A DNA stretch of 64,000 bases, taken from positions 1 to 64,000 of the forward strand of contig CACZMA010000007.1 of NCBI GenBank assembly GCA_902782125.1, written 5' to 3'. Both the position numbers and the translations under genes were made by a program. Of this stretch, positions 40,553-46,879 are shown in pieces. The stretch comes from Oscillospiraceae bacterium. Lineage in GTDB: Bacteria > Bacillota > Clostridia > Saccharofermentanales > Saccharofermentanaceae. Position 1 is the first letter of the stretch. Each line of letters begins with the position of its first letter. Below the pieces are notes generated by a model. It saw only the letters and a program-made list of their open reading frames with translations, did no database searches and was not told the DNA's origin.

Positions 40553-41581
40553 ATGAAGATACTTTCTGTAGCAATACCTTGCTATAACTCGGCTGAATAT
40601 ATGAGCAAGTGCATCGAGTCACTCCTGCCCGCAGGAGACGATATCGAGATACTTATCGTGGACGACGGATCTGCGAAGGACAATACACTGGAGATCGCGA
40701 GAGACTACGAGGCAAAGAACCCCGGCATAGTCCGTGCGATCCACCAGGAGAACGCAGGCCACGGCGGTGCGGTCAATAAGGGCATCAGTGAGGCGACCGG
40801 CATCTACTTCAAGAATATCGATTCAGATGACTGGGCAGATACCGGAGTGCTCCTCAAGATAATCGGCCTCCTTAAGGGCTTCGTGGAGAAGGATACCAGG
40901 GTGGACCTGGTCCTCGCGGATTTTGTTTTCGACAAGGTCGGGGTGAAGGAGCAGAACAAGAAGGTCATGCGCCTTACGAAGTCCCTGCCCGTCGGCAAGG
41001 TCTTCGGCTGGGATGACGTTAAGAAGGTCACATCCCAGTACATCATGATGCATAACATCATCTACAGAAGGGACGTATTGCTCGAGTCGGGCCTGAAGCT
41101 TCCCGAGCACACATTCTACTGTGACAACATCTATGCCTATCAGCCGCTGCCGAATGTTAAGACCATGTATTACATAGACGAAGCTCTATACAGGTATTAC
41201 ATCGGCCGCGAGGGGCAGTCCGTCAGTGAAGAGGCGCAGCTAAGGAACATTGACCAGCAGATTAGGGTCGATAAGATAATGACTGATGTATATGCATCGC
41301 AGGATGCGTCTGCATTAGGGCCCAAGCTAGGCAAGTACATGCTCTCATATCTGACGCTGATGTACTGCGCTACGACGTCGATCCTTCTCATCGGAGGGAC
41401 GGACGAGCACCTTAAGAAGCTGGATGACCTCTGGAAGTATCTTGAGCTCAGAGATCCCAGGGCATACAAGAAGATCAAGGGAAGCTTCATGGGCGGATGG
41501 ATGACGCTGCCTGGCAAGTTAGGCAGGAAGATGTCCGTCGGAGGCTACAGGATCGTACAGAAGCTCTATAAGTTCAATTGA
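40553..41581 (+). CDS. Glycosyltransferase family 2
   Basis: A 342-residue enzyme with the GT-A fold. The N-terminus SVAIPCYNSAEYMSKCIESL and ILIVDDGSAKDNTLEIA is the nucleotide-sugar site, GHGGAVNKGI is typical for GT2, and FKNIDSDDWAD provides the DxD metal-binding motif. No membrane segment is visible except a weakly hydrophobic C-terminal part, so it is a cytoplasmic or peripheral transferase for a surface glycan or glycolipid. The next gene encodes a flippase-like membrane protein and starts near its stop, so they form an operon for envelope glycan or lipid synthesis. Confidence 0.92.
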   Translation: MKILSVAIPCYNSAEYMSKCIESLLPAGDDIEILIVDDGSAKDNTLEIARDYEAKNPGIVRAIHQENAGHGGAVNKGISEATGIYFKNIDSDDWADTGVLLKIIGLLKGFVEKDTRVDLVLADFVFDKVGVKEQNKKVMRLTKSLPVGKVFGWDDVKKVTSQYIMMHNIIYRRDVLLESGLKLPEHTFYCDNIYAYQPLPNVKTMYYIDEALYRYYIGREGQSVSEEAQLRNIDQQIRVDKIMTDVYASQDASALGPKLGKYMLSYLTLMYCATTSILLIGGTDEHLKKLDDLWKYLELRDPRAYKKIKGSFMGGWMTLPGKLGRKMSVGGYRIVQKLYKFN

Positions 41582-41589
41582 CGGTATAT

Positions 41590-42723
41590 ATGGAAAGACT
41601 TAAGACTGCAGGCAAATACATACTGAATTTCCTGATAATCCTCGCGATCGGGGCGCTCTCGCTGTTCCTGTCGGTAGGATCAGAAGGGGAGGCCTTCCTC
41701 GATGCGCTGGTAACATCAGACAAGAGGTTCATCCTGATAATGGTCGGGCTGATGCTCTGCTATTACATGATCGATTCGCTGATACTGTTCATCATCTGCA
41801 AGGATCTCAAGTACCGCATCAGCTATAAGCAGTCGTTCGTTACAAACATGACGGGAGTGCTCTTCTCGGACCTTACGCCTTCTTCGACGGGCGGACAGTT
41901 CGCGCAGGTCTACGTCTTCCACAACCAGGGCGTACCCGCAGGCATCGGATCCGGCATTCTGGCAATGTGCTTTGTCACTTACCAGATAGTAATCATCATC
42001 TATGCGACTGTCGCGATGCTCTGCAACCACAACGTTATCTTTGCCAATCAGCAGACGACAGTAATAGCCGTTGTCGGATTCATCGTAAACGTCGTCATCA
42101 CGGGCGGATTTTTCCTTGCTACCAAGCTTAAGAAAGTGCACACGTTCCTTACGGTAAGCTGCCTTAAGTTCCTGGAGAAGATTCACCTCGTCAAGGACTA
42201 CGACAAGACTTCCAAGTCTGTCACCAAGGCCTTCGAGGAGTTCAGGAACGTATCTTCCATCCTGTTCTCGAGGAAGTCTCTGTTCGCCAAGGTCTGCCTC
42301 TGCCACGCGCTGAAGCTCACGCTCCTTTATTCGGTGCCGTTCTTCGCAGCGCTGTCTCTGAAGGTGCCGATCACGGCGTCCAATTACCCGAACTTCCTGT
42401 CACTGGCTGCTGCCATAAGCCTGTTCAATACCTTCATGCCGATCCCCGGCGCGTCTGGCGGAAGCGAGGCAAGCTTCATGCTGCTGTTCGGGTTCCTCGG
42501 GCAGGCAACGGCGTCTTCTGCGATGCTCATCTGGAGGATGCTGACGTTCTACTTCGGCCTGCTCCTGTCTATCCTTGTGGTTGCTTTCGCGAAGGATACG
42601 AAGGGCGGCATCATGAAGGGCATTAAGGAGATGGAAAAGGCCCAGGACGAGGAATTGTCGTCCCAGGCCGGGCCTTCTGTTATTAAGCCTGAAGATATTC
42701 CCTCAGGCGGCGATCTGAAGTAA
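41590..42723 (+). CDS. Lysylphosphatidylglycerol synthetase TM-like (flippase-like) membrane protein
   Basis: A 377-residue polytopic protein of the UPF0104/LPG_synthase_TM family. Six to eight hydrophobic segments are visible, with the family phrases FSDLTPSSTGGQFAQVYVF and PIPGASGGSEASFMLLFG, which mark AglD and MprF flippase domains. It lacks the C-terminal lysyltransferase. The ATG is chosen over TTG at 41578, which overlaps the GT2 stop; neither has a strong site. Its last 21 bases overlap the end of mgtE on the other strand. Paired with GT2, it may flip or handle a glycolipid. Confidence 0.87.
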   Translation: MERLKTAGKYILNFLIILAIGALSLFLSVGSEGEAFLDALVTSDKRFILIMVGLMLCYYMIDSLILFIICKDLKYRISYKQSFVTNMTGVLFSDLTPSSTGGQFAQVYVFHNQGVPAGIGSGILAMCFVTYQIVIIIYATVAMLCNHNVIFANQQTTVIAVVGFIVNVVITGGFFLATKLKKVHTFLTVSCLKFLEKIHLVKDYDKTSKSVTKAFEEFRNVSSILFSRKSLFAKVCLCHALKLTLLYSVPFFAALSLKVPITASNYPNFLSLAAAISLFNTFMPIPGASGGSEASFMLLFGFLGQATASSAMLIWRMLTFYFGLLLSILVVAFAKDTKGGIMKGIKEMEKAQDEELSSQAGPSVIKPEDIPSGGDLK

Positions 42724-44067
42724 GTTCGTTATCAGCGAGAAATAGATTAGCAGCGATACGGCATCAACAATTGTAGTGATTAGAGGGCTCGCCATTACGG
42801 CAGGGTCCAGCTTGATCGTTGCGGCGATGAGCGGCAGGGTGGAGCCGATCGATTTGGCGAAGATGACTACCAGTACGAGCGTGATGCAGATTATGAGAGC
42901 GACGTTTATCGGTAGCTTGTCGATCAGCATGAGCTTGATAAAATTCGCTGACGAGAGCGTGACGCCGCAGATAACTGCCACACGAATCTCTTTCCAGAGG
43001 ACCTTGAAGAAATCTCTGAACCCGACCTCCTGAAGGGACAGGGAACGGATGACGGATACGCTTGCCTGGGAACCCGCATTACCGCCGGTATCCATCAGCA
43101 TCGGGATGTATGCGGTAAGGAGGACGTAGCTCGCGAGGGCGCTCTCGAAATGCGTGATGATCGCACCCGTGAATGTCGCGGAGATCATGAGGAACAGAAG
43201 CCACGGCATCCTCTTCTTAAAAGTCTCGAAGACGCCTGTACGGAGATACGACTTATCGGTATCGGAAGGGATGATAGCAGCCATCTTCTCGATATCCTCC
43301 GTGGCCTCTTCTTCCATGATATCGATAACGTCGTCGACCGTGATGATACCGACCATGCGGTTCTCGTTATCGACGACAGGCATCGCGGTAAAGTCGTATT
43401 TCTGGAAGGCTCTGGCAGCTTCCTCCTGGTCGTCCATCGTCTTGATGGAGATGACGTTCTCGTTCATGATGTCGCCGATGACTTCGGTCGGCTGCTTGAT
43501 GAGGAGATACCTCAGGGCAACGGTGCCTACGAGTAGTCTCTTGGGATCGAGCACGTAACATACGTTGGTGGTCTCGGAATCCAGGCCGATCTCCCTGATC
43601 CTCAGGATCGCATCCGCTACGGTCATGTCTCGCTTGAGGTCAACATACTCGACCGTCATGACGGAACCTGCGGAATCTTCGGGGTATCTTAAGAGGTGGT
43701 TGATGTCGGCACGCTGCTCTGCGCTCGCATTGGCAAGGATCTGCTTTACGACGTTGGCAGGCATCTCTTCCAGGAAGTCTGTAGCATCATCCGCCATCAG
43801 GTTGTTGATGACGTTCGCGGACTCTGTCTTGGACAGGGACATGATGATGTACTTCTGATCATCGACTTCGAGCTCGGCGAAAACGTCCGCTGCCATTGTC
43901 TTAGGCAGGATACGGAACAGCTTGAGGCTGTCTTCGTCCTCCATCGAGTCCATTATCGATGCGATATCGGCTTCCATCATCTCAGAAAGCCGGTTGCGGA
44001 GGGTTACATACTGCTTCTGCTTAAGAAGCTCTAAGATCTCCGCCTTTACGGATGCTAATTCTTCCAT
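42703..44067 (-). CDS. mgtE: Magnesium transporter MgtE
   Basis: A 454-residue magnesium channel. The N-terminal superhelical MgtE_N domain (about 1-130, with VFAELEVDDQKYIIMSLS) is followed by two CBS domains (about 135-260; MNENVISIKTMDDQEEAARA, VGIITVDDVIDIMEEEATED) and five membrane segments (about 285-450) with PMLMDTGGNAGSQASVSVIR, the conserved pore region. All parts are full length. A promoter and a 39-codon upstream ORF precede it. AAGGAGAGACGCT gives its ribosome binding site. The C-terminus overlaps the flippase-like gene tail to tail by 21 bases. Confidence 0.96.
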   Translation of the reverse strand: MEELASVKAEILELLKQKQYVTLRNRLSEMMEADIASIMDSMEDEDSLKLFRILPKTMAADVFAELEVDDQKYIIMSLSKTESANVINNLMADDATDFLEEMPANVVKQILANASAEQRADINHLLRYPEDSAGSVMTVEYVDLKRDMTVADAILRIREIGLDSETTNVCYVLDPKRLLVGTVALRYLLIKQPTEVIGDIMNENVISIKTMDDQEEAARAFQKYDFTAMPVVDNENRMVGIITVDDVIDIMEEEATEDIEKMAAIIPSDTDKSYLRTGVFETFKKRMPWLLFLMISATFTGAIITHFESALASYVLLTAYIPMLMDTGGNAGSQASVSVIRSLSLQEVGFRDFFKVLWKEIRVAVICGVTLSSANFIKLMLIDKLPINVALIICITLVLVVIFAKSIGSTLPLIAATIKLDPAVMASPLITTIVDAVSLLIYFSLITNLLQIAA

Positions 44068-44140
44068 AGCGTCTCTCCTTAAGGTGTGTTTCTAATGCGC
44101 GTTGTCGCGATCGGGGATTGTCTGAATCGCTTCGTAACAT
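44021..44140 (-). CDS. Upstream ORF overlapping mgtE, possible regulatory leader peptide
   Basis: A 39-codon frame starting at ATG 44140 with an excellent ribosome binding site (AAAGGAGG, nine bases away) that is stronger than that of mgtE. The peptide begins MLRSDSDNPRSRQRALE and continues with basic residues. It runs 47 bases into mgtE in another frame before stopping at 44023-44021. An acidic and proline-containing N-terminus followed by arginines recalls the enterobacterial MgtL leader, whose translation is destabilised when magnesium is low. Homology is not claimed. It sits in the mgtE leader, downstream of a good promoter. Confidence 0.5.
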   Translation of the reverse strand: MLRSDSDNPRSRQRALETHLKERRYGRISIRKGGDLRAS

Positions 44141-44159
44141 TAAAAATCACCTCCTTTGA

Positions 44160-44176
44160 GACGCCGTGGCAGCGTC
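44160..44176 (-). promoter_or_regulatory. Hairpin just before the mgtE upstream ORF
   Basis: On the minus strand GACGCTG-CCA-CGGCGTC can form a seven-pair hairpin with one G-T pair. It ends four bases before the AAAGGAGG site of the upstream ORF and may modulate its translation. Confidence 0.4.
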
Positions 44177-44194
44177 GATTAGAATTTTCTATCG

Positions 44195-44223
44195 GGATTA
44201 TACTCCGTGTGCTATACTTTTGT
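44195..44223 (-). promoter_or_regulatory. mgtE promoter
   Basis: Read leftward, TTACAA and TATAAT are 17 bases apart in the gap upstream of mgtE. The transcript would carry a leader of about 120 bases including the hairpin and the upstream ORF. No M-box riboswitch halves were recognised. Confidence 0.6.
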
Positions 44224-44257
44224 AAGGTATTTTTATTAAGGAATCTGACAAATTTAC

Positions 44258-46879
44258 ATGGATCTCGCCACAATACTGTATACGCTCATAATAAAACCTC
44301 TGGTTCTTATATTTGAGGTCATATTCGTATTCGCGAACCGCGGTCTGAATAACCCGGGACTGTGCATCATTGTCCTGAGCCTGGCAATGAACCTTCTGGT
44401 CCTTCCGATCTACCACAAGGCTGATGTCATACAGAAGGAAGAACGTAAACTGGAAGAGAAGATGAGCGGCACCGTTGCCCACATCAGGAAGGTGTTCAAG
44501 GGCGATGAGAGATTCATGATCCTTCAGACTTACTACCGTCAGAATAACTACAGCCCTCTCTATACGCTGAAGAGCCTTCTGCCCGTAATACTTCAGATCC
44601 CGTTCTTCCTGGCGGCTTATTCGTTCCTGTCCAATCTTGATGTATTGAAGGGATTTACCTTCGGTCCTCTGAAGGACCTCGGCGCGCCGGACGGCCTTAT
44701 CGCTGCAGGCGCGGTCACGATCAATGTGCTGCCCATCCTGATGACTCTCATCAATGTCATATCGGGACTCATCTATACAAAGGGGATGCCGGTTAAGACG
44801 AAGGTACAGACCTTCCTTATCGCGGCAGTGTTCCTTGTACTGCTCTACAATTCTCCTTCAGGCCTTGTCTTCTACTGGACTCTCAACAATGTATTCTCGC
44901 TTGTTAAGAATATCGTTACGGAACAGGCTGAACGCACGGAAAAGAATGCTGTAGAAGAAAAAACTGTGCATAAGGCAGAACACAATGCTGCTTTCTTTGT
45001 ATCTGCAGTATTCCTTGCTGTTCTGACCGGTCTTTATATCCCTTCGGGAGTTCTTCAGGTATCGACTGAAGAGTTCATCAACACAAGCCTCATATTCTCG
45101 CCTAACGACCTTGTATTCCAAAGCGCGATCCTTGCTGTCGGTGTTTTCGTTCTGTGGGGCGGTGTGTTCTATCTGCTTTCAGGCAAGAGAGTCAGGACTT
45201 ACTTTGCATATGTGATCCTCAGTCTGGCCTTTGGTGCTGCGGTCAACTTTTTTGTTTTTGATGCTAAGCTCGGTATCATGTCAAGCATGCTGCAATATGA
45301 CAAGAATCCTGAGTATGACCCTGCAATGCTTCTGGTGAATCTTATCGTGTCGGCAGTACTGCCTGCCGGTGTCATCTTTGCTTACAAGAAGTTTCCGAAG
45401 ATCGTGCAGAGTGTAGTGCTTGCCGGCGTTCTGGCAGTGTCTGTTCTGTCAGTCAGGAACTGTATCAGTATAAATGATGAATACAAGATATATCTTCTTT
45501 ATAACCAAATGCATACGCTGGTAAATGAAGACGGATACACAGACATTGTTCCCTGGACATTGTCTGCAAACGGAAAGAATGTTTATGTCCTGGTACTCGA
45601 TAAAGAGGTAGGTGCCATGGTACCTTATATCTTCAATGAACATCCGGAGCTTGCTGAACAGTATGACGGTTTTACCTATTACAGCAATACTCTGACATAC
45701 GGACCTTATACGAATTTCGGAATGCCTGCCGTATACGGGGGGTACGAATACACTCCGGCTATGTTCAATGAACGTTCTGATATGACGATTCCCGAGAAGC
45801 ATAACGAAGCATTGAAAGTAATGCCGGTGCTGTTTGCCGAGAACGGATACAACGTTACCGTAGTAAATCCCACATATGCTAATTACCAGTGGATCCCGGA
45901 TACCACTATCTTTGACGATATGGATGGTATCACGGCTTATAACACGGGTAATTTCTTTAATCCTTATAAAGAAACATATAACGAGATGTACTTTACCATG
46001 ATGACCAGGAACCTGTTCTGCTACGGTCTGTTCAAATCATCTCCGTGGTTGTTCCAGCCGCTTCTCTATGATTTTGGAAGATATAATTCCGTACTAGATA
46101 TGACCAATATAACTCAGCTGATAGGAGGGACATCCTTCTCTGACGGCTATCTGTATCCGTTCATGAGCGAGTACTATGCTCTCGGTGCGATGCCGGAACT
46201 TACAGAGATAACGGACGATGACAGCTTAAACTTCGTTATGTTCACCAACAAGACTCCGCATGACCCGATGCTCCTGCTGGAGCCATCGATGGAACCTTCC
46301 AAACATGTTGATAATTCAGCATATGATGCGGATAACGACTGGAGATTCATATATAACGGAGTTCAATTCATTGCTGAGGATTGCGAACAGTATGCAGGGT
46401 ATCAGTCTAATGCAGCAGCTCTCATACAGATCGGAAAATGGCTTGTGTACCTGCAAGAGAACGGTGTATACGACAATACAAGGATAATAATCGTATCTGA
46501 TCACGGTAACAATCTAGGTAATTTTGAAGCATGGGTAACCGGTGAAGATCTGAATTATATCGATATTGAACAGTTCTCGCCGATATTAATGTATAAAGAC
46601 TTTGGTTCGACAGGCGGGTTCGTTACTTCAGAAGAATTCATGACTAACGCAGATACACCTTATCTGGCGACCAAAGACATATTTGATAATCCCTGTAACC
46701 CGTTTACAGGTAATGTCTTCAGTACTGATTACAAGAACGGGGATCAGCTGGTCATAAGTTCAGACGAATGGGATATATTGAAGAATGATGGCAATGTGTA
46801 TCTTCCGGGCGACTGGTACAGTGTCTCTAACGGAGACATGACAGATGTCTCCAACTGGACATATCAGGGCGAGTGGTAA
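44258..46879 (+). CDS. YidC/Oxa1-type insertase fused to an alkaline-phosphatase-superfamily domain
   Basis: An 873-residue fusion. Residues 1-230 match YidC2/Oxa1, with the hydrophilic loop YHKADVIQKEERKLEEKM, SLLPVILQIPFFLAAYSFL, and NSPSGLVFYWTLNNVFSLVKN. Four or five membrane segments follow (about 245-410). Residues 425-800 are a sulfatase/alkaline-phosphatase superfamily domain: VYVLVLDKEVG begins it, Thr about 485 in GPYTNFGMPA is the probable nucleophile, and IIIVSDHGNN (about 745-754) carries metal ligands. It resembles LTA-synthase-like or phosphoethanolamine-type transferases outside the membrane. The 3' half has lower GC than the YidC part. Similar fusions are known in clostridia. 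The role may be insertion plus polymer or lipid modification. Confidence 0.85.
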   Translation: MDLATILYTLIIKPLVLIFEVIFVFANRGLNNPGLCIIVLSLAMNLLVLPIYHKADVIQKEERKLEEKMSGTVAHIRKVFKGDERFMILQTYYRQNNYSPLYTLKSLLPVILQIPFFLAAYSFLSNLDVLKGFTFGPLKDLGAPDGLIAAGAVTINVLPILMTLINVISGLIYTKGMPVKTKVQTFLIAAVFLVLLYNSPSGLVFYWTLNNVFSLVKNIVTEQAERTEKNAVEEKTVHKAEHNAAFFVSAVFLAVLTGLYIPSGVLQVSTEEFINTSLIFSPNDLVFQSAILAVGVFVLWGGVFYLLSGKRVRTYFAYVILSLAFGAAVNFFVFDAKLGIMSSMLQYDKNPEYDPAMLLVNLIVSAVLPAGVIFAYKKFPKIVQSVVLAGVLAVSVLSVRNCISINDEYKIYLLYNQMHTLVNEDGYTDIVPWTLSANGKNVYVLVLDKEVGAMVPYIFNEHPELAEQYDGFTYYSNTLTYGPYTNFGMPAVYGGYEYTPAMFNERSDMTIPEKHNEALKVMPVLFAENGYNVTVVNPTYANYQWIPDTTIFDDMDGITAYNTGNFFNPYKETYNEMYFTMMTRNLFCYGLFKSSPWLFQPLLYDFGRYNSVLDMTNITQLIGGTSFSDGYLYPFMSEYYALGAMPELTEITDDDSLNFVMFTNKTPHDPMLLLEPSMEPSKHVDNSAYDADNDWRFIYNGVQFIAEDCEQYAGYQSNAAALIQIGKWLVYLQENGVYDNTRIIIVSDHGNNLGNFEAWVTGEDLNYIDIEQFSPILMYKDFGSTGGFVTSEEFMTNADTPYLATKDIFDNPCNPFTGNVFSTDYKNGDQLVISSDEWDILKNDGNVYLPGDWYSVSNGDMTDVSNWTYQGEW

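Follow-up and report, generated by a model that had tools for sequence, protein, structure and literature searches.

The M-box is the usual explanation of how Firmicutes control their Mg2+ uptake, and the use of ribosome destabilisation as a sensor has been documented for enterobacterial leaders. Work on enterobacteria shows that ribosomes are destabilised by acidic residues, adjacent or one apart and aided by proline, in the first part of the nascent chain (PMC11282234, PMC8092293). In the MgtL leader of E. coli and Salmonella, ribosome drop-off at EPDP under low Mg2+ raises mgtA expression (PMC11282234), and in MgtQ the residues Asp2 and Glu5 release the ribosome binding site (RBS) of mgtB (PMC8092293). 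An upstream ORF (uORF) of a similar kind before mgtE was not found in the open literature that we searched; PMC11109978 has an mgtE motif, which is a riboswitch candidate from Thioalkalivibrio.

The window analysed here is a stretch of 64,000 nucleotides from an Oscillospiraceae bacterium and contains mgtE (42703-44067, minus strand), a gene coding for a Mg2+ transporter with MgtE_N, CBS and MgtE domains. On one side, mgtE shares its last 21 bases (42703-42723) with the end of the convergent LPG_synthase_TM gene (41578-42723). On the other side lies a divergent gene (44258-46879, plus strand) whose first quarter codes for a YidC/60KD_IMP membrane domain and whose long C-terminal part has only a weak DUF229 match below the cut-off, an unusual-looking insertase fusion. 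A sigma-A-type promoter (TTACAA-17-TATAAT; 44197-44225, minus strand) has its predicted transcript start at about 44190 and gives a predicted mgtE leader of about 122 nt, in which the uORF begins after about 50 nt. As the original prediction had claimed, this leader holds a 39-codon ORF (MLRSDSDNPRSRQRALETHLKERRYGRISIRKGGDLRAS; 44021-44140, minus strand) that starts at -73 relative to the mgtE ATG (44067), covers the mgtE start out of frame and ends 47 nt inside mgtE. The peptide begins MLRSDSDNPRSRQR, in the expected order of acidic residues and a proline followed by arginines. The ribosome site of the uORF was also correctly described as stronger than that of mgtE: its Shine-Dalgarno (SD) region at 44151-44159 (minus strand) gives, together with GTGAT, an 11-base match to the anti-SD complement (AAAGGAGGTGAT), compared to AAGGAG (44075-44080, minus strand) for mgtE itself. 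Codons 3-12, RSDSDNPRSR (44105-44134, minus strand), form a conserved motif that is the candidate ribosome-destabilising stretch; in SDSDNP, both the DxD spacing and the proline match known destabilising stretches, and Arg codons 3, 10 and 12 are all the rare CGA.

We consider it likely that the uORF acts in cis as a Mg2+-sensing leader peptide, whose full translation would occlude mgtE and from which drop-off under low Mg2+ would free it. When Mg2+ is ample, the strong SD would load ribosomes that translate the entire uORF, open the 3' arm of a predicted hairpin (P1), cross the mgtE SD and AUG and enter the first 47 bases of mgtE, leaving mgtE poorly initiated (off). Under low Mg2+, the nascent D-x-D-N-P near the N-terminus, at slow CGA codons, would destabilise the ribosome, which would drop off short of the mgtE ribosome site. 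In the RNA thus freed, P1 would close over the uORF SD and AUG, preventing reloading, and with P1 closed the mgtE SD would be single-stranded and MgtE made (on). From MgtL and MgtQ we infer both the Mg2+ dependence of the drop-off and the direction of control, and drop-off alone might fail to raise mgtE if other factors are limiting.

To place this leader, we used the leaders of nine same-genus relatives with a close mgtE (81-97% identical), which together with this genome make up the ten leaders of the window clade, and a collection of 221 distinct mgtE leaders, 188 of them non-redundant, with group labels assigned by peptide type. Across the window clade the uORF stops 22-47 nt inside mgtE; in three relatives the overlap has moved from -73 to -74 and the frame of the tail has changed, and mgtE is still overlapped. 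The overlap type, seen in the window clade and in Lachnospiraceae, has 38 uORFs, and all of them read across the mgtE start in a frame other than that of mgtE, compared to 27 expected with random tails, an excess that is inflated by relatedness. The ten clade leaders have no intrinsic terminator between uORF and mgtE and no excess structure in the segment from -65 to -3 (mean z 0.07). A second same-genus mgtE (28% identical) has such a terminator in 10 of 12 leaders, and in the Clostridium type the 3' arm of P1 is predicted to pair alternatively with a stretch upstream of the mgtE SD (mean z -3.4). Three further leaders (L070, L074, L093) carry a strong hairpin and U-run (CCTCCTGCG...CGCAGGAGGTTTTTT) about 6 nt before the mgtE ATG that encloses the mgtE SD, resembling a combined terminator and RBS sequestor. 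The overlap of uORF and mgtE, and the fact that many Clostridium-type uORFs end 11-40 nt before the mgtE ATG, would also fit an activating translational coupling, in which ribosomes ending the uORF re-initiate at the mgtE start, or open it, so that uORF translation aids mgtE. However, the stops of the window clade lie far inside mgtE for backward re-initiation, mgtE has an SD of its own that is predicted to be unpaired, and an activator would not be expected to carry a destabilising motif, which makes coupling unlikely.

The control by a Mg2+-sensing leader peptide proposed above would involve P1, which is predicted to join the uORF start to the segment before the mgtE SD. The predicted 5' arm (44132-44153, minus strand) contains the uORF SD and AUG, the predicted 3' arm (44081-44101, minus strand) ends immediately ahead of the mgtE SD (dG -16.6, z -2.8 compared to shuffles), and the motif codons form the loop. 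Within these codons, a small inner stem GCGAUU/GAUCGC (44107-44130, minus strand) is invariant in the ten leaders and shows no covariation evidence. When P1 is formed, the predicted probability that the mgtE SD is unpaired is 0.83 (0.51-1.00 across the clade). Pairing of the P1 type was found in most groups, with mean z values of -3.7 in the Clostridium and oscillospiral types, about -2.3 in the window clade, -2.1 in Lachnospiraceae and -1.0 in the same-family group g5. The Clostridium-type P1 has 12 pairs, 7 of them with double changes; 278 of its 287 cells are standard (shuffle maximum 264) and 28 are double-change cells (shuffle maximum 17), and sliding sharply lowers the pairing. Covariation in the window clade is slight and a cross-group swap gave a z of only -0.7, so that P1 is there proposed partly by analogy. 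RNAalifold returned only 6 pairs in the Lachnospiraceae group and none in the oscillospiral group, because loop lengths vary, and duplex energies were used in its place. These predictions support P1 as a part of the mechanism and make it a better candidate than the 7-bp hairpin seen by eye ahead of the uORF (GACGCTG/CGGCGTC), for which a second regulatory layer had been suggested. That suggestion was rejected on finding that seven of the ten clade leaders, with about 27 nt from the predicted transcript start to the uORF ATG, lack such a sequence. A pairing between the GGCGTCTC of this hairpin and the region around the mgtE start, also noted by eye, was limited to two leaders (L002 and L003) and was likewise discarded.

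The breadth of P1-type pairing, its strong covariation in the Clostridium type and the base-level conservation within the window clade are what would be expected of a switch made of RNA only, with P1, perhaps sensing Mg2+ or another ligand, as the conserved element and the reading frame as incidental. Such a switch is nonetheless quite improbable: across families the loop conserves amino acids over bases, start codons and strong SDs are maintained, the acidic-proline order recurs independently of the arm sequence, and no Rfam family matched in the window or in near relatives.

A leader peptide with a destabilising N-terminus is consistent with what is shared across Clostridia, gut and rumen ones among them, where uORFs of mgtE leaders repeatedly show the acidic-proline order, often followed by arginine. 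An acidic-then-proline uORF with an SD match of at least 6 bases was present in 53 of the 188 non-redundant leaders, compared to 2.8 (maximum 5) in dinucleotide shuffles. In Lachnospiraceae, whose MgtE is 63-76% identical, the peptides include MKKSTKKCSSDNPLPRSRRIKIT (L075), MQQSRSSSDNPVPGR (L057), MKSDSHRCGSDPAPGRST (L081) and MSKSSDSPLPR (L110); those of the Clostridium type include MDSGPLPG, MDPVPLPA, MDYDPLPI and MDSDPLPG, and those of the oscillospiral and same-family groups MDAGSSSGTIPDRRR, MDSCDGSYRRR and MDAGDSCDKRGKR. The exact pattern of the Clostridium-type motif had 9 matches in 293 genomes of the class, all in mgtE leaders and about 85-140 nt upstream of the mgtE match, and the reversed control had none. 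The acidic-proline type was also found in some genomes outside the class. Four leaders (L096, L112, L115, L117) have the motif apparently doubled within one uORF (DSRSTDSVPRST), with CGA for both arginines, possibly an internal repeat of the sensing unit.

Within the window clade, M[LT][RH]SDSD[NI]PRSR is constant and the rest of the peptide varies; pN/pS is 1.08 over 20 codons, with a drifting tail and a motif nearly unchanged at any position. Because the motif is as conserved at the base level as at the codon level, the window clade alone cannot separate codon from base selection, and the case for codon selection comes from the wider relatives. There, pN/pS was below 1 in eight of nine groups (0.13-0.83, the value of 0.13 coming from only 4 columns). 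In 45 uORFs aligned on their last proline, which is present in 45/45 by construction of the anchor, the anchored proline uses four codons (CCC 31, CCT 12, CCG 1, CCA 1), and D, S, G and V of the aligned blocks each use several synonymous codons. Arginine codons behave differently: CGA makes up 70 of the 81 in the uORFs, compared to 5-7% in mgtE genes and 3.1% in this genome, and it is the codon of arginine directly after the proline in 15 of 15 distinct blocks, with a weaker bias in other groups (0.35-1.0). Like P1, this bias had not been part of the original prediction. The genome has a tRNA-Arg(ACG), which decodes CGA via inosine wobble. A slow CGA codon after the destabilising stretch could plausibly act as a timer, and part of the CGA conservation in the window clade could instead reflect the small inner stem. 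Proline and arginine codons with a strong CGA bias also bring to mind an amino-acid attenuator that senses arginine or proline supply through slow codons. This is very improbable, since the downstream gene is a Mg2+ transporter and many members of the class lack the motif arginine (MDSGPLPG, MDPVPLPAN) and retain the acidic residue and proline.

The Mg2+-sensing leader peptide remains the preferred reading when the same-genus relatives are considered. All nine that carry a close mgtE have the uORF and its strong ribosome site despite differing upstream sequence, and TATAAT is retained in all ten clade members, with 26-50 nt from the predicted transcript start to the uORF start. The motif and frame are kept across related mgtE leaders, the comparison on which the original prediction had staked itself. 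Among 355 genes (463 kb of the genome), mgtE is the only one with an upstream ORF whose SD match reaches at least 9 bases; the other cases with at least 8 bases are two overlapping ORFs before one gene, and these lack the motif. A conserved N-terminus would also be expected of a small functional protein that works in trans, with MgtE as one conceivable target; the C-terminal two thirds of the product are variable, including in their frame, and we regard such a role as highly improbable. Although short ORFs are common, a chance ORF can be dismissed given the conservation in relatives, the unique strength of the ribosome site, the synonymous codon changes and the excess over shuffled leaders, and on this comparative evidence the uORF is real.

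The same genus has three distant mgtE subfamilies (81-100%, about 54% and about 28% identity; L002-L031), one in each genome with a match in the search, and the window type resembles the mgtE of Lachnospiraceae (up to 76% identity) more than it does the other two. This suggests that mgtE has been horizontally exchanged, perhaps together with its leader.

Taken together, the Clostridia may well possess a widespread and undescribed family of Mg2+-sensing leader peptides, using the destabilising principle of MgtL and MgtQ with a separate origin on mgtE, a self-sealing hairpin, a CGA timer and an output that depends on the lineage (occlusion by overlap, a stem close to the RBS or an intrinsic terminator). 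If this is true, sensing of Mg2+ by the ribosome itself would be in wide use and would have evolved on different transporters, and mgtE control in many gut and rumen Clostridia free of an M-box would be accounted for. Furthermore, the natural variants in output (overlap, stem, terminator) and in motif (DxD-N-P, DPxPLP, DSCDKR) could define the sequence that causes ribosome drop-off.

Compared to the described systems, the M-box (RF00380, ykoK leader) is alike in that Mg2+ controls mgtE-type transporters of Firmicutes in cis, and differs in having an aptamer. Its covariance model had no match in the window or in any of 113 genomes of the family, no other Rfam element was found in the window, and among 80 relatives' loci scanned only L217 and L272 have an M-box. 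With frame and motif conserved and the M-box absent in the family, the idea of an MgtL-like Mg2+-sensing leader peptide in place of the M-box is supported. In L217 (293-458, minus strand), a full M-box, a terminator-like hairpin and an MDPGPLPS uORF stand apparently in tandem before one mgtE, as two possible Mg2+ sensors in series. Mbox-uORF2 of M. tuberculosis is likewise a Mg2+-linked leader with a conserved small uORF, but there the M-box aptamer senses and the uORF peptide is specific to mycobacteria (PMC12810186).

The mgtE uORF would, by analogy, work like MgtL and MgtQ, descent from which is not traced by sequence. As in MgtL, the leader of a gene for a Mg2+ transporter contains a short ORF that has N-terminal acidic residues and prolines followed by arginines and is predicted to allow induction by low Mg2+, and the peptides of many Clostridia are nearer to MgtL still (DPxPLP, DSGPLP, SSDNPLPRSRR). 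However, sequence homology to MgtL is not traceable, the controlled gene is mgtE instead of mgtA, which codes for a P-type ATPase, the uORF overlaps the transporter start out of frame, the predicted hairpin would seal the uORF's own SD, and the motif arginines of the Clostridia uORFs are mostly CGA. A Rho-dependent leader terminator that responds to uORF translation is a feature of MgtL, and the clade leaders here are without an intrinsic terminator. MgtQ, a peptide of 8 amino acids located between two genes of the Salmonella mgtCBR operon, before mgtB, differs in that no stem covers the mgtE RBS in the window type, where the ribosome on the overlapping uORF would itself occlude mgtE. In MgtQ, translation is aborted by acidic residues, an alternative stem forms and the RBS of the transporter becomes free, and the Clostridium-type relatives come close to this arrangement with a similar pair of predicted stems, of which only one can form at a time.
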